Shown piece by piece: positions 396 through 40,843 of a stretch of DNA of 64,000 nucleotides (position 1 is its first letter; each line of letters starts with the position of its first letter). Made by a program: the position numbers and the translations under genes. Under the pieces are notes generated by a model. That model was given only the letters and a program-made list of their open reading frames with translations, was not told the origin of the DNA and did no database searches. The DNA lies in contig OX421963.1 in NCBI GenBank assembly GCA_949128115.1, positions 41,833,979 through 41,897,978 on the forward strand, in the 5' to 3' direction. The DNA comes from Anaspis maculata. Lineage: Eukaryota > Arthropoda > Insecta > Coleoptera > Scraptiidae.

Positions 396-1424
396 TCAAT
401 ATTGAGTATTGCCACCCCCAGCTTGAATCACAGCCGCACATCGTCGCGGCATGCTCAAAATCAGGTTGCGGATATTTTCTTGGGGAATATCTTGCCATTC
501 CTCTAGTAGAGCAATTTCAAGTTCTTGAAATTTGAGAGTTTGGGGAAGGTTTTGGCGGTTCCTGATTCGTCTTTTTAACTGATCCCACATGTGTTCGATC
601 GGATTGAGATCCGGACTGTAAGCGGGCCAAGCCATTCTTCGTATGTTCTGCTCATTTAAGTAATCAGTGACAATCCTTGCGACGTGCGGACGGGCATTGT
701 CGTCCATTAAAATGAATTCTTGACCTTCTGCATGAGCTAGAGGTACCACTTGTGTAGCTAGCACCTCATGGATGTAGCGCTCTGCGTTTAATAAACCGTT
801 ACGAATGATAAGGAGGTCAGTTCGTCCTTCAATGAAAATGCCTCCCCAGATCATCAGCGAACCACCACCAAATGCTACCATTTCAGTAACCGTGTCAGGG
901 TGGAATCGTTCGCCAAGCCTTCTATACACTCTCACTCGTCCGTCGTTTGAATGCAAGGCCACTCTGGACTCATCAGTAAAAAGAACTTTTCTCCATTGTG
1001 GTAGATTCCATCTCAAATGTTCTCTAGCAAACATGTTGCGTGCTACACGATGGTTTCTGGTTAATTTAGGCACTTTTGCGGGTCGTCTCGAGTTCAGGCC
1101 GACTTCTCGCAATCGATTTCGTACGGTCTGGTCCGAAATCTGCACCCCCGTTGCCCTTGACAGACCATTTCGTAGAGATCTTGTTGTACTTGTACGATTT
1201 CTCAGTACTTGAAGGCGAAGATATTGGTCATTTCTGACTGATGTAGACCTTCGTCTACCTTGGCCTGGTCTTCTTGTGACAATTCCTGTCTCTAGGAAGC
1301 GATTCCATAATCGTGATATCACACTCTGGGTAACATTGCAGTCTCTTGCAACAGCGCGCTGAGAATGGCCCTCTTGTAACAAGGTAATGGCCCTTGTGGC
1401 TTCTATCGCTGTTAAGTATCTCAT
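396..1424 (-). CDS. Tc1-like transposase, DD34E
   Basis: Cut-and-paste DDE transposase of 342 aa, a normal Tc1-family length. The N-terminal 110 residues form the paired-type helix-turn-helix region (GHSQRAVARDCNVTQSVISR near 19-38, and a second HTH near 95-110), followed by a basic GRRR segment near 56-59. The catalytic triad is complete: D151 in FTDES, D242 in MDDNARPH and E277 in NPIEHMW, with 34 residues between the second D and E. The GGGSLMIWGG motif lies near 187-195. The methionine is the first in frame and lies just inside the right inverted repeat. There is no frameshift or stop, so the copy looks recently active or at least intact. Confidence 0.96.
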   Translation of the reverse strand: MRYLTAIEATRAITLLQEGHSQRAVARDCNVTQSVISRLWNRFLETGIVTRRPGQGRRRSTSVRNDQYLRLQVLRNRTSTTRSLRNGLSRATGVQISDQTVRNRLREVGLNSRRPAKVPKLTRNHRVARNMFAREHLRWNLPQWRKVLFTDESRVALHSNDGRVRVYRRLGERFHPDTVTEMVAFGGGSLMIWGGIFIEGRTDLLIIRNGLLNAERYIHEVLATQVVPLAHAEGQEFILMDDNARPHVARIVTDYLNEQNIRRMAWPAYSPDLNPIEHMWDQLKRRIRNRQNLPQTLKFQELEIALLEEWQDIPQENIRNLILSMPRRCAAVIQAGGGNTQY

Positions 1425-3295: not shown

Positions 3296-3811
3296 GTCAG
3301 TTGGAATAGCGAAATTCAATGCTTCCAGAAGCTATATCTTGAGCACCGCAAGTCGCATAGAGATGGTTGAGATGTCAAATGACTGGTAATTGAATAAGCT
3401 TTCATATCCCTATAATTTTTTTTATTTCACATTGACTAACTTTGAGATATTGTCAGAAACGTGTTATTTGGCCGCCATTTTTTCAATATGGCCGCGCGAC
3501 GGATGGAAATTGAAAGTTAAAAGGTGGAAATTCGAGAGGGCCAAGCCAGAATCTATCAAAATGCCAAATATGAGAAAGATCCAAAAACTTTGAAAAAATC
3601 CCGTATTTTTGCATAAAAGAACTCGATTACTATGATAGCTTCACCGAGAAAAAAGAAGCGGAAGCAATACTCGATAAAGCGTTGGTCCTACTTGTTGTAG
3701 CAGTTAAATAGGCGCCAACTTATACATGCTGGTAATAATACTACTACAAAATAGTAAATGTGACATAGTTCCGTAATACACTACTTTTTGTACATATTCG
3801 CAGTGAATGAG

Positions 3812-3929
3812 GTAGTAGATTTTACCACTACAGTAGTAGTAGATTTTACCACTACAGTAGTAATAGATTTTACCACTACAGTAGCAGTAGATTTTACCAC
3901 TACATTATGGAGGATTTTACCACTACAAT
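3812..3929 (+). repeat. Left subterminal repeat array of the CACTA-like element
   Basis: Five near-tandem copies of a 26-bp unit with core GTAGATTTTACCACTACA. The last copy is degenerate. Such arrays are accessory-protein or transposase binding sites in known CACTA elements. Confidence 0.8.
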
Positions 3930-4345
3930 AAAGTAAATTTTAACATTCCATATCGTCAATAGAATGTCTCCGTAGTTGTAAAAGAATACTGCATTATAGT
4001 GATAAGAGATACTATATTAGATGGTTTTACTTACCTTACGGAAAAGTTGCTATCATATATTTGATCGGTAACAATAAGCGTTACGTATCATTGTAAATGA
4101 ATACACTTGTAGTAGTGGGAATAAATAAAAATAATTCAAATTTAACACATTAATATGTAATTAAAAACAATATATATGAACGATAAAAATTGAATGCTAT
4201 GAGATTTGAATAAGTTACATGAGTAGGTATATTACAAAATATCATAGGTACAGATAAACTTTCATAAAACAAAACAAAAATGAAAAAACAAAAAACATGA
4301 AAATCTAATCAGGTACTTACATCAAAAAATACAAATTGAAAAAAA
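3930..4345. other. AT-rich 3' region of the CACTA-like element
   Basis: Non-coding stretch between the subterminal array and the transposase stop. It probably holds the 3' UTR and polyadenylation signal of the minus-strand transcript; no clear AATAAA on that strand was found. Confidence 0.5.
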
Positions 4346-6883
4346 TCAGAAATGAGAAGGAGTTACAACTAATTTCAAATTGCGGATTTCATAAAATAAA
4401 CTAGTTACAAAACTCTGCAATGAATCAATACAGATAACATAATAGTTTGAAGCCTCGAAGGAAATTGTGTTACCAAGATCCGTATTTAAGGACTCTGTTC
4501 CAGTGTCATCCGAGACTTCAAACGCATGATAGTGATAATTAAAACCTTCGACGTGCAATTTTTGAAAAACAAAATAAACAGTTTCCTTATTTACTAGAAT
4601 AATATCAACAATTTTCCCAAAACTTGGACCCATATCTTCATCATCATTAGGCAAAAGACTTATTATCACGTTTATTTTATACTTATAACCATAAGCCTCT
4701 ATCCAACTACTTTTTTCAACATCCGAAGAATGAAATATCGCTTCAACTTGAACCAAATCATATTTATCTGCCGATAGAGGTGATAGTTTTCCATGTTCAA
4801 TATTTTTACGGTTCAACTTAGCGTCCAAAAAAATGCAAACGTAATTTAGTTGATGTCTCTTTGCCAAAGACTTTGTAATATTGACTCTAGATTTAGTATT
4901 GTTAGCAATATCCTTGAAGACTTTATGTTTTGCTTCGAAACGCATAGATGACAAATGCTGCAACGGGCCTGATTTCAGGAAGAGTCTTGGATAATGGGTG
5001 ATGAAATGATATTTGAATGTTAAATGTGATTTAGTGAGCTTTAGAAACAAACTATTATGTTCCTCAATCAGGTCATTAAGAATTTGATAGCTATCTTTTT
5101 GTAACTTCTTGGCTGTTAAGATTCCAATTAGTTTTCTTAAACTCAAATATAAGTCCCAAACACTATTACTTTCCGGCACCAAGTCACCAACTATAATTGA
5201 AAAAAATCTAGTGAGGAATAACATTTCGGAAGCTGTAAGTCTCAATTTATCATTAATTAAATCATCTAAGTGAACGGTAGGTGGGATATTTGAATCAGTT
5301 ACGACAGCACGAAGAATTTGGATACGGTAATTCAATGTATCTAAAGAAAAGAGTTTCAAGGTCAAGACAAAATGTTTCAAAATGAAAATGAAGTCAGTTT
5401 TGCACACGCCTTCGAAAAAGTCGTGCATAATATCAGCCGAAAAGTTATCTGTAACATTGAAATATTTGAGTTGATTCCATACGCACAATTCTTTAATTCC
5501 AGTACTTGATGGATCTTGCAAAGTCCAGTCACTGAGGTAGTTTTCCGGAGTCCGTAAATTTGTCGCATTTTCAGTGCACGAGATATTCCTTTGTACTTTT
5601 GTTGTTTTACATATACGACATGGATAATTTGCAACGAAGCTTTCAACAAACCCAAGAAGTTGGTTCATTCCTAGGTTATCGCCTAATATGACACCGATTT
5701 CAAAATAAATTTTCTCCTCTTTGCCGTTAACACAAACTTCAATTCCAATTTCTCTCAAATAATGCAACTCTTCAATAATAATTTGGAAAGTAGCTCTATT
5801 ACCAAATAGTTTTCTGTCATTGCCTTTAATTAACATGGCCAAATAAATACTGTCCAACTTGGAAACTACATCGGGTGGAAAGCAGGGAATAGAGTAGTAC
5901 AAGCCGCCACATTTGTTAAGTCCTGAATGTGAACCCAAAGGATTACCTGCTTCAAATTCATCATAATAGATGAACAGAGGCAGCACAAATTGATCTGAAT
6001 CGAACTTTTTTAGTTTGTCTTGCCAGTACTCTCCCTGAATAAAGTTTGATAAAATATTTTCCTGTTTATTGAGAAATTCCACATGCTGTTTTATTTTATC
6101 TAGTTCTCCGGGTATTTCAAAAATCCTTTTTAGCATTTCGCGCATAGGAATATACGTAGCTTTAACATCGCAATTAGTATACATTTTTTTACCACCTTTT
6201 TTGACAAATTTCATTCTGGAACCAATTACTACCTCCACTGGTTCGACATATAAATTTAATTTTTTCAACATTTTCACGCATTTATGTTCTGTAGTAAACT
6301 GATCAGACACTTTTTGAGTTGTATCGAAAATGGTTAAAATTTTATTTATATCACTATCTGAGATGTTCATGGATTTCAAATTTGTTAACAGTTTATTTTT
6401 GAAGAGTTCAAAGTTTGCATTGAGATGATCACTGAAATTTTCTAGTAAGTTGTAGATATGGCTGCGGGGTATATATTTATTGTTATAAAGCTGTACTAAC
6501 AATTGTAAGTGATTTTTTTGCAACAAGTCTTCGTAATTTGAAAGTTCACAGACATTTTGATCAGTTGAACAGTTACCTCCATCAGTCGCAAAATTAATGG
6601 CAGGATCAGTAGGTGAATCTGAGTCGGAGTCTGAAGATTCAAAAGTTTGATCTTGACTCGGGCCTGCTGTTGCATAATTAGATGAGCCGCACGCTTCATT
6701 TGGTATGCTTACTGATTGCGGCGTACTGTGGTTATTTGACAAATGTTTCCGTAAAGATTTAATATTGGAAAATTTCCGAATGCATTTACCACAAGGATAA
6801 GAAAATACATTCTTGTGATAAATTTTAAAATGCAACAAGAACCCTTTAACATTGAAAACTTTTTTACATAATGGACATAACAT
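4346..6883 (-). CDS. CACTA/EnSpm-like transposase with two C2H2 fingers
   Basis: Single-exon 845-aa protein. Residues 3-23 and 31-51 are two C2H2 fingers (CPLC...HFKIYH and CGKC...HLSNNH), followed by an acidic/serine linker (about 80-95). Conserved blocks follow: NPLGSHSGLNKCGGLYYSIP (314-333), GVILGDNLGMNQLLGFVESF (397-416), YPCRICK (420-426), ADIMHDFFEGV (483-493) and MRFEAKHKVFK (647-657). D402, D487 and E650 are candidate DDE residues, by analogy with TNP2-type transposases. Fingers probably bind the element ends. The ATG lies 2 nt after the stop of the upstream SAM gene, and the first finger begins at residue 3, so this start is likely real. The reading frame is open throughout. A domesticated or other DDE family is possible but less likely. 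Confidence 0.82.
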   Translation of the reverse strand: MLCPLCKKVFNVKGFLLHFKIYHKNVFSYPCGKCIRKFSNIKSLRKHLSNNHSTPQSVSIPNEACGSSNYATAGPSQDQTFESSDSDSDSPTDPAINFATDGGNCSTDQNVCELSNYEDLLQKNHLQLLVQLYNNKYIPRSHIYNLLENFSDHLNANFELFKNKLLTNLKSMNISDSDINKILTIFDTTQKVSDQFTTEHKCVKMLKKLNLYVEPVEVVIGSRMKFVKKGGKKMYTNCDVKATYIPMREMLKRIFEIPGELDKIKQHVEFLNKQENILSNFIQGEYWQDKLKKFDSDQFVLPLFIYYDEFEAGNPLGSHSGLNKCGGLYYSIPCFPPDVVSKLDSIYLAMLIKGNDRKLFGNRATFQIIIEELHYLREIGIEVCVNGKEEKIYFEIGVILGDNLGMNQLLGFVESFVANYPCRICKTTKVQRNISCTENATNLRTPENYLSDWTLQDPSSTGIKELCVWNQLKYFNVTDNFSADIMHDFFEGVCKTDFIFILKHFVLTLKLFSLDTLNYRIQILRAVVTDSNIPPTVHLDDLINDKLRLTASEMLFLTRFFSIIVGDLVPESNSVWDLYLSLRKLIGILTAKKLQKDSYQILNDLIEEHNSLFLKLTKSHLTFKYHFITHYPRLFLKSGPLQHLSSMRFEAKHKVFKDIANNTKSRVNITKSLAKRHQLNYVCIFLDAKLNRKNIEHGKLSPLSADKYDLVQVEAIFHSSDVEKSSWIEAYGYKYKINVIISLLPNDDEDMGPSFGKIVDIILVNKETVYFVFQKLHVEGFNYHYHAFEVSDDTGTESLNTDLGNTISFEASNYYVICIDSLQSFVTSLFYEIRNLKLVVTPSHF

Positions 6884-6888
6884 TTTTA
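6881..6888 (-). promoter_or_regulatory. Stop-start junction of the two CACTA-like genes
   Basis: On the minus strand the SAM gene ends TAA at 6888-6886, then AA, then the transposase ATG at 6883-6881. Spacing is 2 nt and the frame changes. This suits termination-reinitiation on a bicistronic mRNA. An alternative 3' splice site about 17 nt upstream (GAACAG/GC) could instead give the transposase its own 5' end. Confidence 0.6.
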
Positions 6889-9800
6889 CAAAGAAGCCTG
6901 TTCTCTCAGGATATCAGAATCCAATGTACTCACTGAGATAAACGAGGTATCATTTTCAGTGTTGATTTCATAAATTTTTTGTTGGATGTATGTCCAACAT
7001 TGTTCGTTTGCCAAGGGATATGAGGCATTCAGCACCATGAAGCTTTTGAAACATACATCAAGGGCAAGTGTAGCGGAGTGGACTTCATAAATATTTTCGT
7101 TTACTTTGACCAGTGCTTTGGGATTCACCAAATTTCCAACAAGAATGATCCTTGGCTGCTCCGGTTCGTGTAAAGTTGCTTGCTTCGCTTCTTGTTCTTG
7201 CAAAGCTACGGTCAAGTCCTCTTCCCTCTAGAATAACATGAAAATAGTATAGAAATCTAATTTTATTGCAAAGCAGTTAATTAGAGACTTCAGTGTTTTC
7301 TATTGGACAGTCATAAGGTGAGTGAACAATTCCTGCCCTCGTCGGCAAGGAAATTTCCAAATAGCTACCTTTCTACATAATCCCATCCACTTTCTATTTC
7401 CAGTAGGATGACTTTTTAGGGCAAAAATAAAGTGACAAGCTGAAGCGCTGGGAGAATACGGCCGATGGCCGCTAATACTTTCGCTCCGAAACTTTGCAGG
7501 TACCATCAGCCGTAGCCGTAGCTCCCCAGCTTGTCACTTTATTTTTTCCCCAAAAAGTCATTCTACGGAAAATAGAGAGTGTATGGGATATGGTTTTAAA
7601 TTGCAATTAATATTACAGATAGTAAATCAGTTCCCAAATTACTTGGTAAAATGATAATGCATGTTATTGAACAAATGCAAATCCAAGATACATGTTTATA
7701 GATAGTCGTACTTTTTTTGTCGTGCTTCAAGTAACCTGGGGTGATTTGAAACTGAGAAGTTTCAATTATTTTTTTTTCATCTTACAAAAACACTGTTACA
7801 CACTTAACAAAATATCTCAAATTACTAGGTACCTATTGCTTGAAGTACGGCAAAACAAAATCGAGTAGAATTCTATATATAGGTACTTAACTACCGATTA
7901 AGTAGGCAGGTATACAAAAAGTAAGTATACAACAAGAAACTCACATCAATATGAGTCAAGAAGGCCTCCTGTGCTTCTATTTTGGAGAATTTTCTGATAC
8001 CCTTGTTTTTTTTCTTGTGCCGGATAGTGGTGGGGAACAGAACTGGTAGAATTATAATCGCAAGGTTTTCTTCGATGGCTAAAAATCATATCAACAATTA
8101 TTTTAGGTAGGTAAGTAGGTGTTACTGAAAAACAAAAAACCAAAAATAGGTACATACATTTCAAATCGCTCTCACTAAGGTTGTTGCTCAAATGTTTTTT
8201 AAATAAGCTGTTTATCAAATCACATTTCTTCTTACGCGCCAAGTTCAAAACGATCTTGAAAATCAATGGCCATTTTACAAATAGCTTATTGGCGTTATCG
8301 CTGTAGATCTGTTCAAAGTCTTGCACGAGCTGCAATAAAAGAATCAATATGTTAGAATTCACAAAAACTTATAATAAGGCTGCCCGAAAAAGTTCTATTT
8401 CAAAAACAATAATGATGATACACACCAAACTGTATCCTAAAGGCGATGTAAGTGCCGGATAAGAGTTGTAGTATGCATGAATGGAGATCGCTTCATTTTG
8501 GTACCTTCCCAGTCTCGCTTTACTTGTTTTCTTCCACAACTCCTCGACCTTAACCCAAGGCTGGCGATTGTAATTCAACCAGTTGAGGCTTTCTTCGATT
8601 TCCTCGTCAATTGACACCACTTGTTCTAAAATGGTAGCAGTTTGAATACAAATACACTTCTAATATTTAAAAGAAACTGTACCTTCTTGAATATCGGAAA
8701 GCTGGGTTCGTCGAAAATGTCTTCTCTCAATGATGTTTAAATGGATATATTTTCTCCTCAGGTTCATGTATTTGTCCCACAGTTTTCCGTGCGCAGTAAC
8801 AGGTTTCCCGTTTGAATCTCTATATGCTGCGATGAAATATGTTTTGGGAGATTCACAGTCAAAGATTTCGCATATTCCATTAGATAAGGCAATGAACCTA
8901 TCTTTGGTAATTCTGAAAAAAAGAAACTTATATTAAACATTTTTAGAAAATACGTTGTATGATATTATTTGTGGAGCAACTTGCATTTCTTCAGGCAATT
9001 TGGGACTTGATTTATAGTTTTGCAAGTTTCTGCAGTGAAAGCAATAGCTTACCTCACTTGTGGATCTTTTTCTAGTTCCTTTTCAATGATCAGTTTCACC
9101 AGAAGACCTCTTTTAACAGTTTTATGCAAACGGTATGTTTGCACTATTTCTTTACCATCATTGGTGTTTTGGAGCAGGCTTTCAAGGTAAGTCTGCAAAA
9201 TAATAAAATGATAAATGGTTTGAACACTACAGGTTTCGAAATGTTGGAACATACGTATTTATGAGGATTATTACTGAGTATATTTTATTTGTAGTTTTTT
9301 TTTATAAAATAAAACCTAAACTGACTTACCTTGACAAAAACCTTAGTTTTGGGATTAGTGGACTGATTTACATCGACTGGAGTCGAATCCCTGTTCGGAA
9401 GAGATATAATATCTGAAAAAGAAGTTTCAACTTGCTCTGCATCGGAAACTTCACTTTGAGCAGAAGTACTAGGCGTGCCCAAAGCAGAAGTACTAGGCGT
9501 GTCGAAAGCAGAAAGGCTCGTACTACCCTTGGTAGAAGTGCTTGGAATGGCCGGTTCAGAAGTATGCTGTGACGAAAAACCACCGGAATGTTTCTCTTCA
9601 GTAGAATCATCTACTAGGAGTATACTAGAGTGCTATAAAAAAAAAACTTGATGACTCAACAACTAAAAGATGGACATTTCCTCAAAATAAATCAGCCGCA
9701 AGGTGGATATGAGGTAAGTAACGACTGTCAACTTTCATCCACAAACAAACCAACAGACTTAACAGAAAAAATGACTTGAATAGTCACCGTTTCAAAATGA

Positions 9801-12800
9801 ACCTAACAATACTCAAGGAAGCGGTAACTTCAAGACAAAAAGCTGAACACGTACAACAAGTATGAACACGTGCCAATTTTCCCCCGTTTTCGTTAAAAAC
9901 CACCACCAAAAAATATCACCCCTTGAGCTGAGTTTATGATGAGCGATTTTTTGCCGCGATTTGAGCTGAGCTGTGCGGAGCGGAGCGATTTTTTTGCCTA
10001 GGCCAATTACGATGCGGGGAAGTGACATCATGAATGGACAGGATTGGTCCAGACAAAAAAAAATCGCTCAGCTCAGCTCCGCTCCGCCGGGTATCGCTCA
10101 TCATAAACTGAGCATTTTCGTTTTTGTTAAAACTGGTACTTGATAGAACATGCTGGTTTCAAGAAACATGTCTAAGCCAGACTTCAGATGAATATCTCAA
10201 AAACCCGTTTCACCAATATGAAATAATTTTGAAGAAAAACATTTCAAGTTCCAAGTTCTATGAAAATCGTTCCACTAATAAGAAATTTTAATATGGCGGC
10301 CAAGATGGCTGCGGAATCATGAAATTCAGCTTGAAAATGAGAATGTTCATACAAGACAAGAATAAGTATTCCAAGTTTGATGTCAATCGTTCAACTAATA
10401 AGAGATTTCAATGTGGCGGCCAAGATGGCGGTGGAATTATGAAATTTAGTTCAAAAATAAGGATATTCATACGAGACAAGAATAAGTTTCAAGTTTCATG
10501 ACAATCGTTCCACTTATGAGAGATTTCAATAGGGCGGCCAAGATGGCGGCGCAATCATGAAATCCAATCTGCCCACTGACCACCCTTTAGGACCTAAGCT
10601 ATCCATCGGAAAAAGTTCCAGGGCTCTGGGTTCATTCCCCGAGGAGGAGTTCAGTTTCATGTAAGTGCACAGGAATTCTTTGTTTTTTGATAATAATAGT
10701 GATAACTATGTATGTATAAAAAAATAATGTCCATTGGCCACCCTTGGGGATATCGGCTATCCATCGGATTAAGTTCCAAGGCTCTAGTTTCATTCCTGGA
10801 GGAGGAGTTCAACTTCTTAGTAGTGCAAAGTAAATCTTTGTTTCTTGATAATAATAATTATAACTATGTATGGATAAAAAAAAGCCCAGGCCACCCTTGG
10901 GGACATCAGCTATCATCAAAAAAAAATTCCAAGGCTGTAACTTCATTCCCAGAGGAGGAGTACAACTTCTTAATTTCTACACGGACAGACAGACGGACAG
11001 ACAGACAGACAGACAAACCGGCCATATACGCGTCATTTTCTTACGAAAATGCGGTAAAAATTAGGCGTGAACAACTTTTTCTCCTAAACGGAACGCAGAA
11101 TCAAAAGATTTAAAAAAACAAGAACATTTCTAAACGAGGCTTAAAAATATTTATTTGCGTGAAAAAACAGGTGGAAAATAGGGTATAGCCCCCCTCAATA
11201 TCTACGCCACTAAATAGTTCTGGGAATTGCTTTGATGATGATGACTGATTAACAGGTACAAAATCCATTTTTTTACCTAGTAGGTACCGAATAAAGTGAC
11301 AATCGGTCAATAAACTTGGAAGTCATCACAAAAAATATTTTTCAAGATCATCAAAAGAGAGATTTGACACATCTGTTCATAAGAGCTTTTGGTCATGAAA
11401 CTGCATGAAGGTCGCCCCCTTGAGTCTTTTCATCAACTAGTTAGTATTTTCTGTTCTTTCTTCTTCTAGAACCGTACCTACTATATCCCATAAATAACTT
11501 GAAATGTAGGTATTCGAATTATGATTATATGGGCGAGTATATGGGTGTCCCATTTTTCGGGGATCACTATTGGGATCTCGGAAAGGTAGAGATACACTGT
11601 GACACTGAGACTGAATCTTTAAAGAGATCAAAAATATCTTGGACCGTTTTCGAGATATATCTTGAAGAAACTGAAAACTTTGGATATGCATAGAAAAAAA
11701 TTTAATTTTTTTTGTTATTGTACCTATCTATTAAGTTGAATTTTTGTAACTTGGCATTATTTAATATTATAGGTATTTGATTTGAGGTTGCATGGTGAAG
11801 CAGCTTTTAGCTGAATGTCGTTTCGTAAAACAAGACAAATGAATGAATATAACCGATGTGTTGGTAGCATTTGTTTTTTTTTCCTGGGTTTACTAGTTTC
11901 AGAGATAAAATAGTCAACTTTTTTTTCAAATTGGCGCCATATTGGATTCTTTCACCAACAGATGCACAAAGAAATTTCAATTCAGTGATGAAACTGATAC
12001 TTGTAATTTTGTTGGAGAAAAAAATTATACAGGCTGTCCCGAAATTAGTGTTACAAAACTCACAGGGAGATAGAAAATTGAAAAATAAGGGGACTTTTGT
12101 TGATAAATATACCCTCCCAAACGTATAATAACGGAGATACAAGCCTTCAAAGTTGTTTTTTAAAAACAGTTTTTTTTTGCATACTTTTTGAACCGTTTAG
12201 CCGATTTCATTCAAATTCGAATTAAAGTTTATTAACACAAGTTTTCATTGAACAGTGATAACGAATTTCATCAGACAATTTTAGGGGCGAAGATAATAGG
12301 GGGTCCTCACCCCCGTTCACCCCTATTTTTAACCCCCCTGGATATTCTTGGAAACGGTTCAGTTTTTGAATTTTGCGTTCAATTTCAAGAAAAAAGTTAC
12401 TCTTGCAAAATTTTGATTATGGGGCTTCATTTTCAAGATATTTGGGTTTAAAACATTAGAAAACATCACAAAATCGCCTCTTCCCAGGGCCCAAATTGTG
12501 TTTTTTTCTGAATTTCTGAAAAACTCCATGTTTATCAGCGAAAATGATGGTTTATCAACTCAAACACCCAGAAAACTCATTCCATTTGACGACTCATGGG
12601 TTTTCCTGAATTTTAATTTTTAGGCCCAGGAAAGTGACAATTTCGAGATATTTTTTCAATGTTTCAATTTCAAATATCTCAAAAACCAAGCCTCTAATCA
12701 AAATTTTGCAAGAGTAACTTTTTTCTTCAAATTGAACGTTAAAATTAAAAATTGGAACAATTTCCAAAAATATTTGGAGATGTCAAAATAGGGGGAAAAG

Positions 12801-15770
12801 GGGGAGGACACCTCCTATTATCTTCGCCCCTAAAAATGTTTGATAAAATGCGTTATCATTGTTAAATAGAGGCCTGTTTCAGTAAACTAAATTTCAAATT
12901 TGACTGGAATCGGTTGAACGGTTCTAAAGTTATGCAAAAAAAAAACTGTTTTCAAAAAACAACTTTGAAGGCCTGTATCTCCGTTATTATACGTTTGGGA
13001 GGGTATGTTTTTCAACAAAAGTCCCCTTATTTTTCAATTTCCTATCTCCTTGTGAGTTTTGTAACACTAATTCCCGGACACTTGTATAAAAAATATCAGA
13101 ATCAATAATAATTGAAATTTCAAATTTCGCAAGTCATTATATTTTTCACATCAACTTTATACCTTACTGAAGAAGATAAAATTATGATTTACATAGAAAG
13201 AAAAAATTGTTACAAATTAATACAGGTGTTCCACGAAGTAACCGAAATAGTTCAAGGGTAGATGTACTTTCTCAAGGCAAATCAGAATCTGCCTTCGAAA
13301 TTTTCCTGACTTGCCCCGTTTCCCATGTGCCCAAAATGCTGCCCTTGCTTTTGAAATATACTTGCAGCATTCCAATCGATTCTATTGATTTATTCCTGAG
13401 ATATGGCTAATCAAACTTTTCGGTTGGACACATAAATCGTATATCGGAAACGGAAGACGTCAGAAAAATTTCGAATGCAGATTCTGATTTGCCTTGAAAA
13501 AGTACATCTACCCTGAAGCCATGTCGGTTACTTCGTGGGACACCCAAAAATTTTTAGAGTAAGTCTTTTTTCATATTCTCACTTTTTCAAAATACAAGTG
13601 TAATACAACACTGCATTGGATTTTTTTTTGTGCATATGTTATTGCTGTGAAAATCCAATATGGCGCCCGTTTAAAAATCTGAAGGCATAGAAAAAACAAA
13701 TGTTACCAGCAAATCAGCTATGTCAAATAATAATGTCATGTCAAGCCAAATTTCAGACTCATAGATATAACGACAAAAAAGTTGAAAGGCTTTTTTTGAT
13801 TTGAGCTGAACTTTTAAGTTGTTTTTCAGGATATTACAGAAACCGTCAAAAATATCGATGGTCTCTTCAAAAATTCAAAATGACCAAAAAATTGCGCAGC
13901 TTTCTGTGATTAAACCAACTTTGTATCTGTTACCCTTTCCGAGATTCCAATAGTGAGAGTTGGAAAACGGGACACCTCTAGAATAGCGCAACTTTTCTCA
14001 AGTTCAACCGACTTTGTAGCTCTTACTTTTTTTTAGATATGAAATACCAATAATAGTGCGTTAAAGACCGAGACACCCTATATTTGTTTTCAGGATGAGC
14101 AATGAGCATGGTGAAGGGAAAACCTAGCAGGTGGTGAAGTATTACTTAAACACCCTGTACAAACCACAAGAGAAGGGGGCAACTATTGTTTTTTTTTTTT
14201 TCTTCAATTATTTAAGTCTATGATTTCATTGGTCTATAGGTATTACTAGAGGATTGATTTTTGATCTTTGAGAAACATTTTTGAGAAACACGTAACACCT
14301 ACCCACCTAAGGTGTAGCCCTTCAAAGTCAAAGTTGATTTTGAAGAAAATGTTTTCCATCATAACTTCTTCATTTTTTACTCAATCTTAGTAAAATTTTT
14401 CTCATTCACTTTTAAAATCACTGTCTAGAATACGAACATTCAATTTTGAGAAGTGACCAGTGGTGAATATCCTAAGAAAGTCGTTTTTTTTCGGCACCCC
14501 ATTTTTGACGCCACTGTATTGTTCCAAAATTGATTTTATGCTTAGTTGTCAAGTTCCATTTAGGTGAGTAGCTACGGATAGTAAAACTTTGATTCGAGGC
14601 TTCTTTGTCAAAAAATTGGACGGTAAAATGTCTTTATAATAAATACTATAATAAGTACTGTAATAAAACTTTGTCACCGAACTTTTTGATAAAGAAGCCT
14701 CAAATCAAAGTTCTACTATTGGTAATTCCTCACCTTAATGAAACCTTGAAGCCAAGCATTATAGCAGTTTTGAAAAATTCAGTGGCGTAGAAAATAGCGT
14801 GCCGAAAAACTCGACTTCCTCAGAATCTTTACTACTGGTCACTTCAGCCCAAAATCGAAATTCCGTATTCTAGATAATGATTTTCGAAGTGCATGTGTAA
14901 AATTTTACTGAGTTCGGTTGAGAAATGTAAAAGTTGTGATAGAAAACAATTTCTCAAAAATCATTTTTGAAGTGCTGTATTTTAGGTTATACGAATTTCT
15001 CAAATATATTTTTAGTCACAGACCTGATATTATTTTATCGCCCCCAAAGCCACGGACTTGCAATGAAAAAAAAATCAGTAGCAGCCCCCCCCTATATGGT
15101 TGAACGTGCACGCTCGCGGTCGGTACGGTTGCGGCCAAAATAAAGTGAACGACAATGTCAACGAGTTGGCGTGCTGTCATGCGACGTTCAGGCCAGAATC
15201 CTGAGAAATCTGTCAACTGTCGTCCACTTTAAAAAGGCCGCAATAGTACCTTCCACTTTTTTATCAACCAAAACATCCTGAGCACGAATACGAAGAGAAA
15301 CTGTGTTAGTCCGTCATAGCCTAATAGTTTTAGTTTTGCGAACTAAGAAAATCCTCACTCACGTCTATTACAAATTCTCTCCACTTCAGCCTTAGCTTAG
15401 CCCTAAGCCCCGCTTGGGGCACTAGCTGCATTAAATCTTCTTCCGTCAAATTCAGGAAAGCTTCATCATCCACAAAATTTGCTATAAAATAAACCGTTTC
15501 AGGTTAATTTATGCAAACAATCTAACCTTTTACTAGCTGAAGCTGAAGCTGATAAAAGCAAACAATTCATATAGCAACAAAAAAACATGCTGAGGCGAAT
15601 GGCAGAATAATGCGTGCAGCTAATCTACCTACGTACCTATAGGTAACTACGGACACAACTACACAACAGAGCAACTAGGTAGCTACTTCACTATAACATA
15701 AAATTTAGCACCTACCTTCGAAGACTGATTTAAGCTCGTGTAAATTCCAGGCTTCCAGGTACTTCTCCAT
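6886..15770 (-). CDS. SAM-domain (SAMD3-like) transposon gene, nine exons
   Basis: Spliced exons read on the minus strand: 15716-15770, 15363-15481, 9330-9632, 9053-9192, 8683-8912, 8426-8625, 8158-8329, 7945-8078, 6886-7227. They join without frameshift or stop into 1695 nt, 564 aa; every junction has GT..AG. Residues 1-58 form a sterile alpha motif domain (MEKYLEAWNLHELKS..., ...GLRAKLRLKWREFV). A Ser/Thr-rich linker with repeated TPSTSA follows (60-158). The rest resembles the SAMD3-like family: GKLWDKYMNLRRKY, NRQPWVKVEELWKKT, PLGYSLLVQDFE, RKFSKIEAQEAF, and a C-terminal QPRIILVGNL...LALDVCFKSFMVLNASYP block. The homology is from memory of the family and untested. It shares a transposon and probably a transcript with the transposase, so an accessory role such as end-binding or oligomerisation is inferred. 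Confidence 0.8.
7388..7582. mobile_element. Short palindromic MITE in intron 8
   Basis: Arms at about 7390-7443 and 7526-7580 are inverted copies (core AATAAAGTGACAAGCTG). It lies wholly inside the intron 7228-7944 of the SAM gene. Confidence 0.7.
9921..10113. mobile_element. Palindromic MITE in intron 2
   Basis: GCTGAGTTTATGATGAGCGAT at 9927-9947 is matched by its reverse complement at 10093-10113; inner arms share GAGCGGAGCGATTTTTTT-like sequence. It is inside the large intron of the SAM gene. Confidence 0.65.
10225..11110. repeat. Half-foldback with two tandem series and a GACA tract
   Basis: Three units of about 120 bp (starting near 10249, 10369 and 10488) each hold a GGCGGCCAAGATGGCGGC-like core. 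They are followed by three units of about 155 bp (near 10575, 10735 and 10890) and an ACAGACAGACGGACAGAC tract at 10980-11018. The same parts, as inverted arms, make up the 46325-47243 element. Short reading frames across it are by-products. Confidence 0.75.
11111..12029. other. Unassigned intronic sequence
   Basis: Part of the large second intron of the SAM gene. No domain-bearing reading frame, RNA gene or clear inverted repeat was seen. Confidence 0.5.
12030..13084. mobile_element. Compact foldback element, about 1.05 kb
   Basis: Nearly the whole element is one palindrome: 12030-12480 pairs with 12620-13084. It starts CAGGCTGTCCCGAAATTAGT and is flanked by TA on both sides. It has no gene. 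Its inner phrases (GGGGCGAAGATAATAGGGGG, AAAAAAGTTACTCTTGCAAA) match the arms of the large 1-18812 foldback. Confidence 0.85.
13223..13546. mobile_element. Small foldback element
   Basis: The left end CAGGTGTTCCACGAAGTAAC (after TA) pairs with GTTACTTCGTGGGACACCC on the right, and the arms share AAATCAGAATCTGCCTTCG-like sequence. Palindrome centre is near 13385. Confidence 0.8.
13547..14307. other. Decayed one-armed foldback sequence
   Basis: Phrases such as ACCGACTTTGTAGCTC and GGGACACC at 13930-14090 resemble one arm of the 49958-50875 family. No partner arm or gene is visible. Confidence 0.45.
14308..14998. mobile_element. Foldback element
   Basis: Arms at about 14308-14600 and 14690-14998 are inverted copies, including AGGCTTCTTTGTCAAAAA against TTTTTGATAAAGAAGCCT. 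It is non-coding and intronic to the SAM gene. Confidence 0.8.
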
Positions 15771-15984
15771 TGTCGTCCTCGTAAAAACCAAAAAACACAA
15801 CACCGGAACCGCAAGCAAAATTATGAACAACCACCGACAGGAAAATATGGCTTGGGCGCGTGGGGTGCTTTTTACCGGGAAGACGAATCAAATCACATGA
15901 TCACAATTCGGAAATCTAATTGGCTGACCAAGTCGATTATTGCCGATCATAGCCGTGTAACAGAGCGTAACTTTAGTAGCAGTA

Positions 15985-16145
15985 ATGGTAACATTTCTGT
16001 AGTGGTAATTTCTACCATTTGAACGTAGTGCATAATACTATGGAGGTATTTGGCTATGAATACTTTTACGAAGATGTTATCATCAACATCTGTAGTGGTG
16101 AGTGCTACTGCACAGTTCAACTATTTTGTAGTAGTATTTTTTACA
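15985..16145. repeat. Right subterminal repeats of the CACTA-like element
   Basis: Three or more degenerate TCTGTAGTGGTAATTTCTAC-like motifs (near 16002, 16090 and 16125). They are the inverse of the left array, so the two ends carry the motif in opposite orientation. Confidence 0.6.
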
Positions 16146-17561
16146 ATTTGTAAAGCTGTCACTTAGTACTAGAGCAGTTGTATGAACCGTTTTTTGAAGT
16201 ATTGATAATTAGTTGATAAGAACTGCTACATTTAGTGAATGGGAAGTTGATTATTTTTCTGAGTGTTCGGAGGATATTTTTTCCAAAAAATGGTATGGGA
16301 TACCAAGAGGATTTGTTTCTCTACAGATTGACGTAACAAATGTCAAGATCTGTTGTGAAATGGAAAAACTACATCCATTTTATTGTTAACGAGCGGGACT
16401 CATTTTGGCGCCTCCACCATATGTGCCTGCAACAGATCCTAATGTTCCACCATAATTTTTCACATTCCTTGATGGTCCAAAAATCGATTGGCACAATCCC
16501 TATATAGCCTCACGAAGCTGCACACGGCAAGACCTTTTGCGACCCTATGCCCCCATACTATTCATTTTCGAGATATTTGGGTTTGAAACTCTGGAAAACA
16601 TGTCGAAACCGCCACTTTCAATGAGCCCTTTTTTTCCTGAAATTTTCTCGTTTCTCAGAAAAAATAGTGGTTATTTAACTTAGAAATTCTGAAGAACCTA
16701 TTTCTGCTGAGAAATCATTAGTTTTTTTGGATTCTAATTTTTAGGTCTTCGAAAGTGGCAATTTCGAGATGTTTTCCAAAGTTTCAAACCCGGATCTCGA
16801 AAACGAAGCCTCTAGTCAAAATTTTCAAGAGTAACTTTTTTCTCTAAAATGAACGAAGAATCAAAAAATAAGAACAATTTAGAAAAATAGCTATGGGTAT
16901 AGAAAATAGGAGGAGAAATATGAGGACACTCTCCATTATTTACGCCCCTGAACTTTTTTTCTCAACGCGCTACTATTATTCGATAGAGACTTAGGGGAGA
17001 GCAGGTGAATATCGACCACTTAAGGCAAAAAATTCGAAGCCAGTCGCCATGTGCATTGTCGAGGCTGTACGTTTTGTACCATATTCCCCAATCATTTAAC
17101 TACCCAAAACCTTGAATAGTCACTCACTAACTAGAAACATTTTTGCGAAAAAAATTCAAGAGCAAAGTTAAAATTTTAGCGGGTAATATCGACCAGTGGG
17201 ATAAAATTGACCACCAGGTCGGATAATATCGATCACACGTTTTCTTTGCCATTTTGTAGTCTGCATGCTTAGCAAAAGCACAAAAATACAAGTCGAAACA
17301 TCTGTTTTCAAAAAAAATCTAGTATAATTTTGATTTCGCCTCCCTATTCCTAACATTTACCAAGAGCGGCGCCCATGATAGGAACCTTAAAGAATAACAG
17401 AGAAAATAAAAAATAATTTTTGTGTAAGTACTCTCAAGAACCTCATCAGTTCATCTTCGCACCACACGAGGCACGATTCGTTCTTCGCCGATATTTTTTG
17501 CGAGGCATCTTAAATGATGTATAAAACTTCATTTGTACAATATCGACCATCGTGATCGATA

Positions 17562-35009: not shown

Positions 35010-36326
35010 ATGCCACGAAGTACAGAAATGGAATCCGCACAGGGCATAACTCGCCATTCCGAAAATACGCAGAAAATAATCGTAAGTGACACACCAAAGA
35101 AAAATGCCCCGAAAACTGTACAAACCGGTATCGATAGATACATCACCGTTTCAAATAAGCGCAAAAGGAATCCGAACTCACCAAAAACGAACCAAAATTC
35201 GATAAAAGTGTTAAGAAGAGCCGAATCAAGCTCTACTGCTACCAGCAATAGATTCAGTGTTCTGCAGGACTTGAACCATGATGCTGTTGCTGATGCTGAT
35301 GTACCACAGGGTGCGGCACAGGTTGTGAAGAAGGAAAAACCTCCCCCTATCTTCCTGAGGGAGGCAACAACAAAAGAAGAGATTGCGAAGTTGCAAAGCA
35401 TTTGTGGCGCTGACTTCTTCGTAATACCCATGAAAAGAGGCCAAATCCTGGAGACCAAAATCCAAGTGCTAGATGTAGACAAATATAAACTTGTCATCGA
35501 CGACCTGACAAACAGAGAAAAAAAGTTCTACACCTATCAGCTGAAGAGCCAACGTCCATACACCGTTATACTGAAGGGAATCGACGCATGGGTGACCACC
35601 GAGGATGTAGCCCACGCGCTGAAGGAAAAAAAATTTGCAGTACGAAATGTAGTCAACGTCTTAAATCGGATAAAAGAACCACAACCAATATTCAGGATTG
35701 ATCTAGAACCAACGTCCAAAAAAGCAGGCGAGAAACACCCCATATTTGATCTGCAATATCTGATGTACAGAAAAGTCAATGTAGAGGAGCCCTACAAAAG
35801 AAAGGAACCAACACAATGCTTCAACTGTCAAGAATACGGTCACACAAAAAAATACTGTTCCCTTATCACCATTTGTGTAATCTGTGGTGATGTACATCAA
35901 GCGGCAGATTGTAAAATACCAAAAGAAGACACAGCATCCAAACTCTGCAGCAACTGCGGCGGCAACCACACTGCAAATTACAGGGGTTGCCCGGTGTACG
36001 TGGCTCAGAAGAGGAGTATGAATCCACATCCGAAACCTCACACCGGATATGCGAATAACCAGCAAGAACGAAAACCGATTCCACCAGAACGTTTTGCAAA
36101 TATCCAGCCAGGAATCAGCTACGCCAAGAAAACGCAAGAAAACATCAGCCCCACAGTAACACCAATACCAAGCTCAACTTTAGGTAAACAGGTTGACATA
36201 AACGAAATGTTTTTTAATATGATGAACATGATGCAACAAATGATGCAAAGCATGAATTCCATAATGCAAATGTTAATTAGTAAAAACGATTCACCTGTAT
36301 CCAATCTCGTACTGTCATCAGCATAG
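35010..36326 (+). CDS. LINE ORF1, gag-like protein with three zinc knuckles
   Basis: 438-aa nucleic-acid-binding protein expected to coat LINE RNA. The N-terminal 110 residues are polar and low in complexity. The middle (about 140-265: IPMKRGQILETKIQ, RPYTVILKGIDAWVTTEDVA) has the RRM-like region typical of Jockey/R1-type ORF1. Three Cys/His knuckles follow: CFNCQEYGHTKKYC (about 270-283), CVICGDVHQAADC (about 290-302) and CSNCGGNHTANYRGC (about 313-327). The C-terminus has a methionine-rich amphipathic run (MFFNMMNMMQQMMQ), a possible oligomerisation helix. It ends in a UAG, after which the same frame continues into ORF2. Confidence 0.92.
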   Translation: MPRSTEMESAQGITRHSENTQKIIVSDTPKKNAPKTVQTGIDRYITVSNKRKRNPNSPKTNQNSIKVLRRAESSSTATSNRFSVLQDLNHDAVADADVPQGAAQVVKKEKPPPIFLREATTKEEIAKLQSICGADFFVIPMKRGQILETKIQVLDVDKYKLVIDDLTNREKKFYTYQLKSQRPYTVILKGIDAWVTTEDVAHALKEKKFAVRNVVNVLNRIKEPQPIFRIDLEPTSKKAGEKHPIFDLQYLMYRKVNVEEPYKRKEPTQCFNCQEYGHTKKYCSLITICVICGDVHQAADCKIPKEDTASKLCSNCGGNHTANYRGCPVYVAQKRSMNPHPKPHTGYANNQQERKPIPPERFANIQPGISYAKKTQENISPTVTPIPSSTLGKQVDINEMFFNMMNMMQQMMQSMNSIMQMLISKNDSPVSNLVLSSA

Positions 36327-36332
36327 CAAATA
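36324..36332 (+). promoter_or_regulatory. Candidate stop-codon readthrough site
   Basis: The ORF1 stop and next two codons are UAG CAA AUA. The frame is unchanged and stays open into ORF2. The sequence fits the leaky UAG CAR NBA consensus (TMV-type class). ORF2 has no in-frame ATG before its endonuclease motifs, so readthrough is the simplest way to make it. Confidence 0.62.
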
Positions 36333-38955
36333 ACTGATATAATCTTTTGGAACATCAACGGATATAAAAATTTACATGATTTTGTACTAGACTGTGATGT
36401 AGAATTTGATTTTTTATGTTTGTCTGAGACGTGGTTAGAAAAAGAACCATCAACCTCTAACATTCTGCCTAACTTCAGATTTGTTTTTACAACTGCTGTT
36501 AGGAGTCATTCACGCGGGCGTGCCAGTGGCGGTCTGTTAATTTTTTATAGGAACAAATATGTAGTCAAAGTCATAGATGTTTCGCCCTCATGGCAAATTT
36601 GTATATGTAGCTGCGACAGCTACAGTTTGATCATTTGTTCTGTTTATTTTGTACCTGAAATTGTAGTAGATGACTACCTAGATACACTTCAATCGATAAT
36701 TAATGAACTTCGAGAAACGTACACAAACACTCCTATCATTATTGGGGGGGATTTTAACGCTAGGGTGGGGAATCTTGGCCAGGTCCCGATTGAATTGATA
36801 CAGGAGACAATTCTCTACGATAAACGAGCTAGTTGTGATTTAATAGTCAACAAACGTGGACATCTTGTACTTGACTTAATGAACTGTAACCTGTTTACTC
36901 TGATTAATGGCCGAACTTTCAATGATCGTCCTGGGAAGTTCACCTTCAGTGGTACGGCGGGAGAAAGTGCTCCTGATCTGCTCTGGATTGATAATGATTC
37001 ACTTGGAAAAATTCGTGATTTTTTTGTTTGCACTCATAATACTCAATCAGATCATTTTCCCCTAAAGTGCTCATTACAACTGGAAACCATTCCCACTACG
37101 CATAACTCTGAGGACGCTCCTGTTACTTCGTCTGCCGTGCTGAGGTGGGATGATTCTTTTAACAGTCCGTATGATATTGCCATGGAAAACTCTCCCGGTG
37201 TTTCATTTTTGGGGTCCGCCAGTGAATCCTTTCAAAATCTCACAAATGCAATCTTTGAGGTGGCTGATTCTCTGGGTATGGTTAAAACTGCGAGACGTGG
37301 AGGATCGACGTGTAAAAACAAGCCATGGTTCGATGTCGACTGTAAATATATGAAAAAAAATTTGAAAGAGACGCTCAAAATTTGCATGAAACATAATTTT
37401 GCCTATGCATATAAAACCCTTTACCACCAAGCCAAACAACAGCACAAAACTCTAATTAAAAAGAAAAAAATACAATATGAAAAGAACATCTCCGAAAAGC
37501 TTAGTAACGTCAAGAATCAAAGTCAATTTTGGAGAACAATTAAATTATTCAAAGAATCCGTCACCCGAGTTTCACTTCCCACCGAAACATGGGAACATTT
37601 TTATGAAACTGTTTTTCCTAATCGTTTGATTTCAGAACTCTCTCTACCAATCACCACTAATCCAAGTTTAGATGCTCCCATAACTCTCGATGAGCTTTTA
37701 ATCGTATTAAATAACTGCAAAAACTTGAAATCGCCAGGTAAAGATGGGATTTCTTATGAATTTTATAAGAATCTGCCCCAAAATTGGCTTCTGTATATTG
37801 TCACTTTGTTCAATAAAATCATGGACGAAGAACGAGTTCCGAATGTTTGGAGTGAGGTAATAATAACAATGTTGCATAAAAAGGGACCTACGGAAAACCC
37901 TGCAAATTACAGAGGAATTGCTTTAATTAACTGTGCCGCCAAAATTTTCACTTCGGTTCTTCTCAATCGACTCGTTGATTGGGCGGAGTTGAACACCATT
38001 CTTCCTGAATCCCAGGCTGGCTTCCGCAAGGGTAGAGGGTGCATTGATAATATTTTTGTTTTGAACTCCGTTATACAAATCCATCTTCGACTAAAGCGCC
38101 GAAAGGTATACGCGGCATTTGTAGATTTCCGTAGGGCTTTTGATACTATTGACCATTCACTCCTTTGGAAAAAAATACATCATCTAGGGGTCAGCACAAA
38201 AATCATCAACATAATTAAAAGTCTCTACGACAATGCCACTATACAAATCAAAGCCAACGGTATGTTTACAAAAAAGTTTGACGTGTCATCTGGGGTGCTT
38301 CAGGGTGAATCTTTGAGTCCTCTGTTGTTTGCGTTGTTTGTTGCTGATGTTGAAAGCTATATGAGAGCACAGGGTGTGGTGGGAATCGATATTGACGGCC
38401 TTAATGACTTATTGTTACTTTTATATGCGGACGATCTAGTGATTGTTGCCGATTCTCCTATTGACCTCCAGCGAAAACTAAAGGCACTTGAACAGTACAC
38501 ATTACTTAACAAACTTACAGTCAACACGGATAAGACGAAGGTAATCTGTTTTAACAGAGGTGGACGTGTTAGCGACTTTCAGTTTTATTACAACAGCGAA
38601 AAACTGGAAATGGTCACAAAGTATACTTACCTAGGGGTTCTTTTTACTTCGTCTGCACTACACTTAGAAATGACTCGGTCAGCTGTCGTCAGGGCTAAGC
38701 AATGCGTGGGTGCTGTAATGTCACTGATGGCCCGTTCGAAGATTCAGTCCTGGGACGCAAGACTAAAACTTTTTGAATCAATTGTTCAAGCATCATTTTC
38801 ACATTGTATGCCTGTGTGGGGCTTTGCTTATTCTGAACTGTTAGAATCCGTGCAACTTAATTTTTTCAAGCGGCTCCTTACTATTGCGGTCAATACGCCT
38901 AATTACATGGTTCGGCTAGAGACAGGTTCGTTGAAGCTTTCTTATTGTGTTTTTA
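36327..38955 (+). CDS. LINE ORF2, APE endonuclease and reverse transcriptase, 3' end removed
   Basis: Translation opens directly after the ORF1 stop: QITDIIFWNINGYKN, the first APE motif. GGDFNARVG (about residue 142) and QSDHFPL follow, completing the endonuclease. RT motifs lie in order: SPGKDGISYEFYK, LPESQAGFRKGRGC, FVDFRRAFDTIDHSLLW (about 598), SSGVLQGESLSPLLFALF, and the catalytic YADD (about 699). The frame is intact to 38955, where a palindromic insert begins; coding sequence beyond this to a stop at 38987 belongs to the insert. It nicks target DNA and primes reverse transcription of the LINE RNA. First in-frame methionine is about 190 codons in, so an independent AUG start would lose the endonuclease. 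Confidence 0.92.
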
Positions 38956-40843
38956 GCCCAGGCATTTTAGTCGGAAAATCGTGGTAACCCGTAACAAATT
39001 CCCTCAAAGCTGAATTTTGGTATATATGTTCTATTGGACCTACGGAACAACATATCAAAATACTCGGACTTACACCCTCGTGCGTCCTTTGATTTTCATC
39101 CTCAAAGGTCAAGTTCTAAGAATAAGAGAGATACCTATCTCCAAGCTGTTCCAGCAAGTGAACGGAGTATCCGATCGATATAAGATATGTTCAAATGAAC
39201 AAAAAGAGATTTGTTGTTAGTGCTTAAGTGTGTGAGGGAGCCTTTGTAACTCTTCCGATTGATTAGTTCTGCGGGAAAGGCGGCTGAGTGTTAATTTGTC
39301 GCCCGGATATTTCAGGAAAAACCATGTGAGAATTCAAAGCCTCAAGCAATGTCGCACAAAGTTGAATATTGATATATAACTGGTATGATCCCTAAGGAAG
39401 AACATATCAAAATATTTGGACTTACACCTCTGTGCCTCCTACGATTTTGGGGCTTTGGATATCTAGTCAAAATATTCACCCAGACCGGAGAAGACCCAGA
39501 CACTTTTCTCTAAAACTGTTCCTGTGGACGAACCAATCATTTTAACACTATAAGGTGGGTCTCAAAGGAAACACGGTATATTGTTGCCTATGAAGTGGAC
39601 TCCGGTAGCCATGAAACATTTCTGCTTGATAGTGGCGTGAATAGTACGCGCAAGGTAGACTTTCTCTCCTGGATCTTTGAATGAGAAACATGTAAGAATA
39701 TTTTGTGATGGCCAATAAAGCTTAGCATTGTTAATAGGTTCTTCTTCCCATCTTCGAAACAGACCCAAGTGATGGGACTGATGAGTGAACAGTTGATATT
39801 CACAGTGCTTATCCCGAGAATAATGAATTCTCTACAAAAAAAATTGTGGTTTCTTCATTTAGGGGCATCATTGTCTGAGGCTGTCAAAAATAAAAATTAC
39901 CGACAAATCCTATATTCATGTTTATCTTGGACAAAAACAGCATCAATTGGTCTCGCCTATTTATATTACAAAGTCAGAGCATCAATTTTTTATTAAACAA
40001 GTTTTACACCTACTTTTTTTCTGAAAATGGAATAACGGCTACAGAAAAGATGATTCTATGTTTTTATTGCCTGATAGATACAATAGCTTTTGGTATTTTC
40101 AGATAGAGGAAGAACTTCGCTTAGTATTACACACAAAAACAGTGGAACCGCTCCATCATTCATCAGTAAAAAAAAAAGAACTGCAAAATTTGTATGCATT
40201 TTCGGGAGAAAATTGGGCATATAATCACTTTCACAACAGATCAATTTTCTGATCTTGTTATGAATACAGGCACATTGTTTTTATAGTTTTCAGGTATAAA
40301 ATGGTTAAGAACAATGAATTCTGTTGGAAATACTCAATTGAGATGATTCTAACCATACGGAAACCGAAATTACAAAACGACAATTTCAGATTGCAAAAAT
40401 CATCGTTTTCCAGTAAAACTTGTTTATTCGTGTTTCAATTCAATTTTAAACACCAAATTTGATATCAGAGGCCAAGATTTAGTTAGAAACGATACCACAC
40501 TTGCCGATATCAATTCGAGATTTTTGAGAGAAAAACAAAATAAATTTTGCCGATCTTCTTTTTTTTCCAGGCAACCCAAACTACTTATCAACAATTCAAA
40601 CGTCAAGCAAATATTGTGAAGCCTTGAGGCATCTCAATATGATTTTTTTCATTTATATAAGCTACAGGGTGTCATTTACGCATTTAAATTGGCAATATTT
40701 AGCCCCCTCCCCCACAATCAATGACGCACAAGGGTGTGCCACCGAGTATTTTGATATGTTATTCCTTAGGTCTTACAAGGCCCATGTACCAAATTTCAGC
40801 TTTGTGGGAATTTGTTGCGGGTTAAAACCTAATATGCCTGGGC
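38956..40843. mobile_element. Foldback element inside LINE ORF2, 1.9 kb
   Basis: It starts GCCCAGGCATTTTAG after TA (38954-38955) and ends with ATGCCTGGGC before TA (40844-40845). Arms match over 150 bp (CGTAACAAATTCCCTCAAAG against CTTTGTGGGAATTTGTTGCG). Part of the arm is repeated directly at 39355-39445 (ATCAAAATATTTGGACTTAC). No gene. Its insertion inactivated the LINE. Confidence 0.85.

Follow-up and report, generated by a model that had tools for sequence, protein, structure and literature searches.

A two-gene element and its ends

The window referred to throughout is the whole 64,000-nt stretch of Anaspis maculata DNA that was analysed (contig OX421963.1, positions 41,833,979 to 41,897,978), and the element described here occupies positions 3642..16265 within it. 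This element, which carries one gene for a SAM-domain protein and one for a transposase, is almost certainly complete, a DNA transposon of the autonomous type that belongs with the CACTA-related elements of animals. It has exact ends and a 2-bp target-site duplication, its SAM gene model and its transposase are both open, more than 100 left-end copies and a set of deletion derivatives occur in its own genome (757.8 Mb, searched for copies), and the pairing of the two genes is recurrent. Its outer features are the following:

3642..16265, no strand: whole two-gene CACTA-related element, delimited by copies that have both ends in common and by 2-bp duplications
3640..3641, no strand: left target-site duplication TT, from the sequence and the matching flanks of other two-ended copies
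16266..16267, no strand: right target-site duplication TT, from the sequence
3642..3653, plus strand: left terminal inverted repeat, starting CACCGAG, from exact copies of its first 29 bases
16254..16265, minus strand: right terminal inverted repeat, starting CACTCAG when read inward, from right-end copies and the like start of the L030/L031 subfamily
3737..3755, plus strand: 19-bp subterminal motif, with an inverted copy at 16120
16120..16138, minus strand: inverted copy of the 19-bp motif, from a motif search
3812..3942, plus strand: tandem array in the left subterminal region, its 24-bp units carrying a CCACTAC motif, from repeat analysis and motif counts

The terminal inverted repeats are short, with 10 of 12 bases identical between the ends, and the termini are of the form CAC..GTG (CA..TG type), with CACCG at one end and CACTC at the other. 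A reading of the sequence made earlier without database searches (the sequence-only reading) had proposed a complete CACTA-like element with a 2-bp duplication and had set a search for further copies of its ends as a check, which both proposals passed. When the best 40 of 254 left-end candidates were scored, all 39 non-self matches started at window positions 3633-3642, while among the best 40 of 170 right-end candidates 37 of the 39 non-self matches ended at 16265-16267 and the other two reached 16274 and 16279; no copies ending elsewhere were found among those scored. The exact left terminal 29-mer occurs 109 times in the genome, window included, as against 0 occurrences of its reversed control. 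Twenty of the 39 left-end places were fetched for comparison of the ends, and a homologous right end lay within the stretch in 19 of them, with no right end within the fetched stretch of L013. Identical 2-bp flanks were present in all 19 two-ended copies (9 TA, 4 CA, 3 TG, 2 AA and 1 TT), as well as at the window copy (TT/TT). Within 450 bp of the left end the ACTAC/GTAGT motif occurs 13 times and within 450 bp of the right end 5 times, where the frequency in the remainder of the window predicts 0.62; the left count comes mostly from the 24-bp tandem array, outside which 4 motifs were counted against 0.44 expected.

Deletion derivatives and a second subfamily

All 19 two-ended copies are internal-deletion derivatives, which the sequence-only reading had not described, in which element positions ~856-879 are joined to ~11683 (window 4520 to 15324). 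Thirteen are ~1.77 kb in length, and the remaining six are longer, with further insertions. Their identity to the window copy is ~84% through most of the 730 bases at the right and reaches 94-95% in the first 216 bases, and the 13 short derivatives have a mean mutual identity of 97.5% (96.2-100%), some of those at different sites being identical (L011 = L021 = L022; L015 = L016). The presence of such near-identical or identical copies at different sites shows that the derivatives have moved recently. In addition, a second subfamily (L030/L031/L033/L034/L035) consists of copies that are 99-100% identical, of which L030 and L031 start with CACTCAG. In the L030 element, SAM exon 2 (region L059) is seemingly interrupted by an insertion bounded by inverted repeats, as judged by eye.

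The transposase

The transposase abuts the SAM gene on the same strand, and its features are:

4346..6883, minus strand: open reading frame of the transposase, 845 aa, with its ATG 2 nt past the SAM stop and in a different frame from the SAM gene
4799..6523, minus strand: predicted RAG1/Transib-like catalytic core, residues 121-695, with D308, D402, E650, C422/C425 and H626/H630, from the predicted structure
4406..4804, minus strand: predicted BAH-like C-terminal domain, residues 694-826, adjoining the core, from the predicted structure

The 845 codons reported earlier are indeed open (6883-4346), whereas the RAG1-like core and the BAH-like domain go beyond the sequence-only reading. D308, D402, C422xxC425, H626xxxH630 and E650 are invariant in 48/48 members of the transposase family, and the DDE triad thus holds C(2)C and H(3-4)H motifs between its second D and its E. 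In the predicted structure, the fold of the catalytic core is RAG1-like, its nearest matches being RAG1, RAG-like and Transib chains. At sequence level, Transposase_21 (PF02992) is matched by 12 of the 48 members at E<=1 (best 1.1e-6) and an N-terminal zf-C2H2 by 7 of the 48 at the same threshold, while the window protein matches just DUF4218 (E 0.16) and zf-Di19 (E 0.34). The C-terminus adopts a BAH fold in the predicted structure, but no BAH family was present among these 2 families for the window protein at E<=1 or among the 25 of 50 families listed for the 48 members, and the domain is therefore named BAH-like.

The SAM gene

The SAM gene is predicted to comprise nine exons on the minus strand, from 15770 to 6886, that encode 564 codons followed by TAA:

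15716..15770, minus strand: exon 1, with the ATG at 15770 (gene model)
15363..15481, minus strand: exon 2; together with exon 1 it codes for the SAM domain, residues 1-58 (gene model, Pfam, fold of the relative P0121)
9330..9632, minus strand: exon 3, a Ser/Thr-rich linker (gene model)
9053..9192, minus strand: exon 4 (gene model)
8683..8912, minus strand: exon 5 (gene model)
8426..8625, minus strand: exon 6 (gene model)
8158..8329, minus strand: exon 7 (gene model)
7945..8078, minus strand: exon 8 (gene model)
6886..7227, minus strand: exon 9, conserved C-terminal region, with the stop TAA at 6888-6886 (gene model, relatives)

The nine exons and 564 open codons are as first described. GT..AG borders were imposed as a condition of the exon search and hence lend the model no independent support; under this condition 120 border combinations stayed open, the 564-codon one being the longest. 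The later junctions are backed by related proteins whose sequence aligns before and after them (by eye), and the exon 2/3 junction falls in an unalignable linker. The profile search proposed beforehand gave a divided result, since the window protein reaches a Pfam SAM_1 score of 19.7, under the gathering score of 23, and its relatives P0123 and P0131 pass it. The SAM domain is recognised from Pfam matches together with the predicted fold, which in structure comparisons, including that of P0121, resembles SAM domains of the polymer-forming kind.

Two stretches with inverted repeats interrupt the introns:

12035..13080, no strand: intron 2, possible nested insertion, with further pairs at 13225-13544 and 11530-13990; like the L017 flank (73-75%)
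7380..7589, no strand: intron 8, possible nested insertion; like the L019 flank (84%)

These stretches look like nested later insertions, because two resemble sequence in unrelated flanks, and the element length of 12.6 kb would therefore be inflated. Intron 2 also holds two more tandem arrays (window 10249-10972), with units of 120 and 158 bp.

Pairing of the two genes

The sequence-only reading had regarded the SAM gene as the partner gene of the transposase, and the surroundings of its relatives agree with this: of the 21 SAM loci counted genome-wide, 17 lie <=3 kb from a transposase match, which at C2:24288300 is a short fragment. The refuting case of SAM genes widespread without the transposase is thus not the prevailing one in this genome. 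The 21 loci exclude five matches to exon 2 only, four of which adjoin a left-end match and represent deletion derivatives, the fifth being on C9. Conversely, 30 transposase stretches were taken with 1.5-kb flanks (L029-L058; several are fragments, with L045/L046 covering the second half of L034/L035), and a SAM match lies upstream in 18 and downstream in 2 of them. In the latter two (L043, L044) the order is reversed, with the transposase first and a SAM-like gene downstream on the same strand. In L030/L031/L034/L035 the genes overlap, the transposase ATG lying 8 nt ahead of the SAM stop's first base, and at other loci with both genes ~60-780 nt separate the stop of the listed SAM frame from the transposase ATG. 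The closest cases suggest a single transcript for both genes, read by reinitiation or alternative splicing.

The identity values of the SAM C-terminus correlate with those of the transposase (r 0.70; 1/20,000 permutations) in a set of 18 pairs reduced to 11 by removal of near-duplicates (10 from the same genome and P0084), which speaks for joint inheritance, not for contact. In two gene predictions, from a butterfly (P0064) and a wasp (P0084), SAM-protein sequence and transposase form a single fused product; these fusions may be prediction artefacts, yet they show that the genes are neighbours. In Cydia a SAM gene and a transposase have consecutive locus numbers and are recorded on contigs of equal length, from which their adjacency is inferred. 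Coding sequence for the SAM protein persists in Lepidoptera and Hemiptera and in fragmentary form in Hymenoptera, and by these sequence matches the partner protein is conserved across insect orders. As relatives of both genes sit side by side in insects, the two proteins may be suggested to cooperate in moving the element, and a set of genes annotated as "uncharacterized" in moth and aphid would then be transposon genes.

A possible mechanism and its alternatives

The SAM protein is probably a functional partner of the transposase, and a CACTA-related element with two genes, one of them for a TnpA-like SAM partner, appears to be the best explanation overall and a reasonably likely one. Since the genes abut or overlap, one transcription unit from the right end would yield both proteins, by a dicistronic message or alternative splicing. 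The RAG1-like DDE transposase would cleave at the CAC ends, while the SAM protein would oligomerise via its SAM domain and help to unite the subterminal ACTAC arrays of both ends, on DNA directly or by holding the transposase. Such bridging of the ends through oligomerisation is a tentative proposal, made by analogy with TnpA. The SAM protein may also regulate its own promoter, which would sit in the right subterminal region, and the BAH-like tail may tether the transposase to histones.

A number of observations weigh against this explanation. Ten of the 30 transposase stretches have no SAM match, at least three of these being 3' fragments, and four of the 21 SAM loci (C3:33040878, C1:19558390, C1:6162087 and C1:5227089) stand alone, with no transposase detected nearby among the candidates scored (54 of 379 in one search and 54 of 122 in another). 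The loci are not independent, L034 and L035 being 100% identical including their flanks and several others >97%. Moreover, L031, L033 and L034, which are 99-100% identical to L030, have lost the SAM exons through different internal deletions and kept transposase sequence; the gene pair is therefore separable, at least in trans, and copies can spread without a SAM gene of their own, like any derivative in trans. Joint divergence would also be expected of a passenger captured once, long ago. The copies without SAM exons, the four lone SAM loci and the joint divergence are compatible with a host SAM gene that was captured by chance and carried along. However, its coding sequence has been kept in three insect orders for longer than a passenger should last, and the window model is open across 564 codons, which makes mere carriage very unlikely.

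The main rival is a RAG2-like role, in which the SAM protein would bind the RAG1-like transposase and activate or gate it, as RAG2 does RAG1, with no contact with the arrays. The proximity of the transposase core to RAG1, RAG-like and Transib chains is in keeping with this, as are the joint inheritance of a pair that stays together and the Pfam domain searches, which recognised no DNA-binding domain in the SAM protein or its relatives. The enriched subterminal motifs nevertheless invite a dedicated binder, although the transposase has N-terminal zinc fingers of its own and may bind the ends alone. This role is conceivable but rather unlikely. An improbable third alternative is that of a regulator or anti-silencing factor that governs transcription or chromatin state of the element from outside the transposition complex. 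The SAM gene runs inward from the right end, the right subterminal motifs lie ~230-360 bp upstream of its ATG, and polymerising SAM domains are common in chromatin proteins. None of the present results is directly contrary to this alternative, but retention of the pair in reversed order (L043, L044) fits a protein partner at least equally well.

The remaining difficulties concern end-bridging by a TnpA-like SAM partner and the age of the window copy. The structure model of the SAM protein is poor outside the SAM domain (mean predicted local distance difference test score, pLDDT, 61.3), and a predicted likeness to polymer-forming SAM domains does not demonstrate polymerisation. Of the two subterminal arrays proposed earlier the left one is well supported by its motif count, whereas the right-end count of 5 is equalled in 6 of 1017 background stretches and is less striking. 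With respect to age, the window copy has the sole high-identity transposase among the best 54 of 379 candidates scored, the next full-length match being 47% and the closest fragment 71% identical, and it is probably not young, because its introns appear to carry later insertions. The recent activity formerly deduced from the intactness of both genes is upheld by the derivatives and the L030-type subfamily, but intact genes are weak proof of it for the window copy, a lone type with nested insertions.

A broader proposal would combine these elements into a widespread two-component machine of insects. In it, a CACTA transposase with a RAG1-like core and a BAH tail that reads histones would act together with a partner that polymerises through its SAM domain and scaffolds the subterminal arrays, an animal counterpart of TnpA/TnpD built from unrelated modules. 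Certain SAMD3-like genes of vertebrates with a SAM domain, which presumably resemble the SAM gene of the element, might then be domesticated relics. This joint claim is doubtful.

Other elements in the window

Two further kinds of mobile element were observed in the window:

396-1424, minus strand: open Tc1/mariner-type transposase reading frame, 342 aa (PF01498, PF13358)
35010-38987, plus strand: retroelement reading frames, one with PRE_C2HC and one with endonuclease and reverse transcriptase, both long and open

Comparison with known systems

The closest published relatives in the literature compared are the TRC elements (transposons related to CACTA), known from Schistosoma, Aedes and Tribolium, which according to the portion of the report available have 2-bp duplications, a Transposase_21-type protein and CCC termini, with sizes of 5.2 kb in Tribolium and 9.2 kb in Aedes and spliced transcripts in Schistosoma (PMC1636069). 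The portions of their spliced products outside Transposase_21 are apparently not detectably conserved, as far as the same portion of the report goes (PMC1636069). The element shares with them its place among animal CACTA relatives and the 2-bp duplications, and 12 of the 48 members of its transposase family match Transposase_21. In contrast to their CCC termini it has CAC termini, the terminal cores being CACCG and CACTC, and its SAM partner is conserved across insect orders, whereas no such partner is described in the available portion of the TRC account.

The plant CACTA/En-Spm elements with TnpA and TnpD start with CACTA and generate 3-bp duplications. CAC ends, subterminal arrays, two proteins and a DDE transposase are common to them and to the element, which differs in its 2-bp duplications, its CACCG and CACTC starts and its gene order; TnpA is not known to be a SAM protein. 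A conserved SAM partner that abuts the transposase and is inherited with it makes the question of a TnpA-like helper in animal CACTA relatives directly testable.

The CMCT clade (EnSpm, Mirage, Chapaev, Transib, Plavaka and others) is characterized by C(2)C and H(3-4)H motifs, CA..TG ends and 2-5 bp duplications, as given in the available part of its description (PMC12730594). The element conforms to it in both motifs, in its termini and in the duplications of the window copy and all 19 others; neither a SAM partner nor a BAH-like domain is mentioned for CMCT in that part. With RAG1/RAG2, RAG-like and Transib systems the element has in common the RAG1-like core and CA..TG ends, and RAG is likewise a two-protein system. 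RAG and Transib make 5-bp duplications, while those of the element are of 2 bp, and its SAM partner and BAH-like tail set it further apart. The RAG1-like core, joined to a tail that may read chromatin, offers a comparison for RAG1/RAG2.
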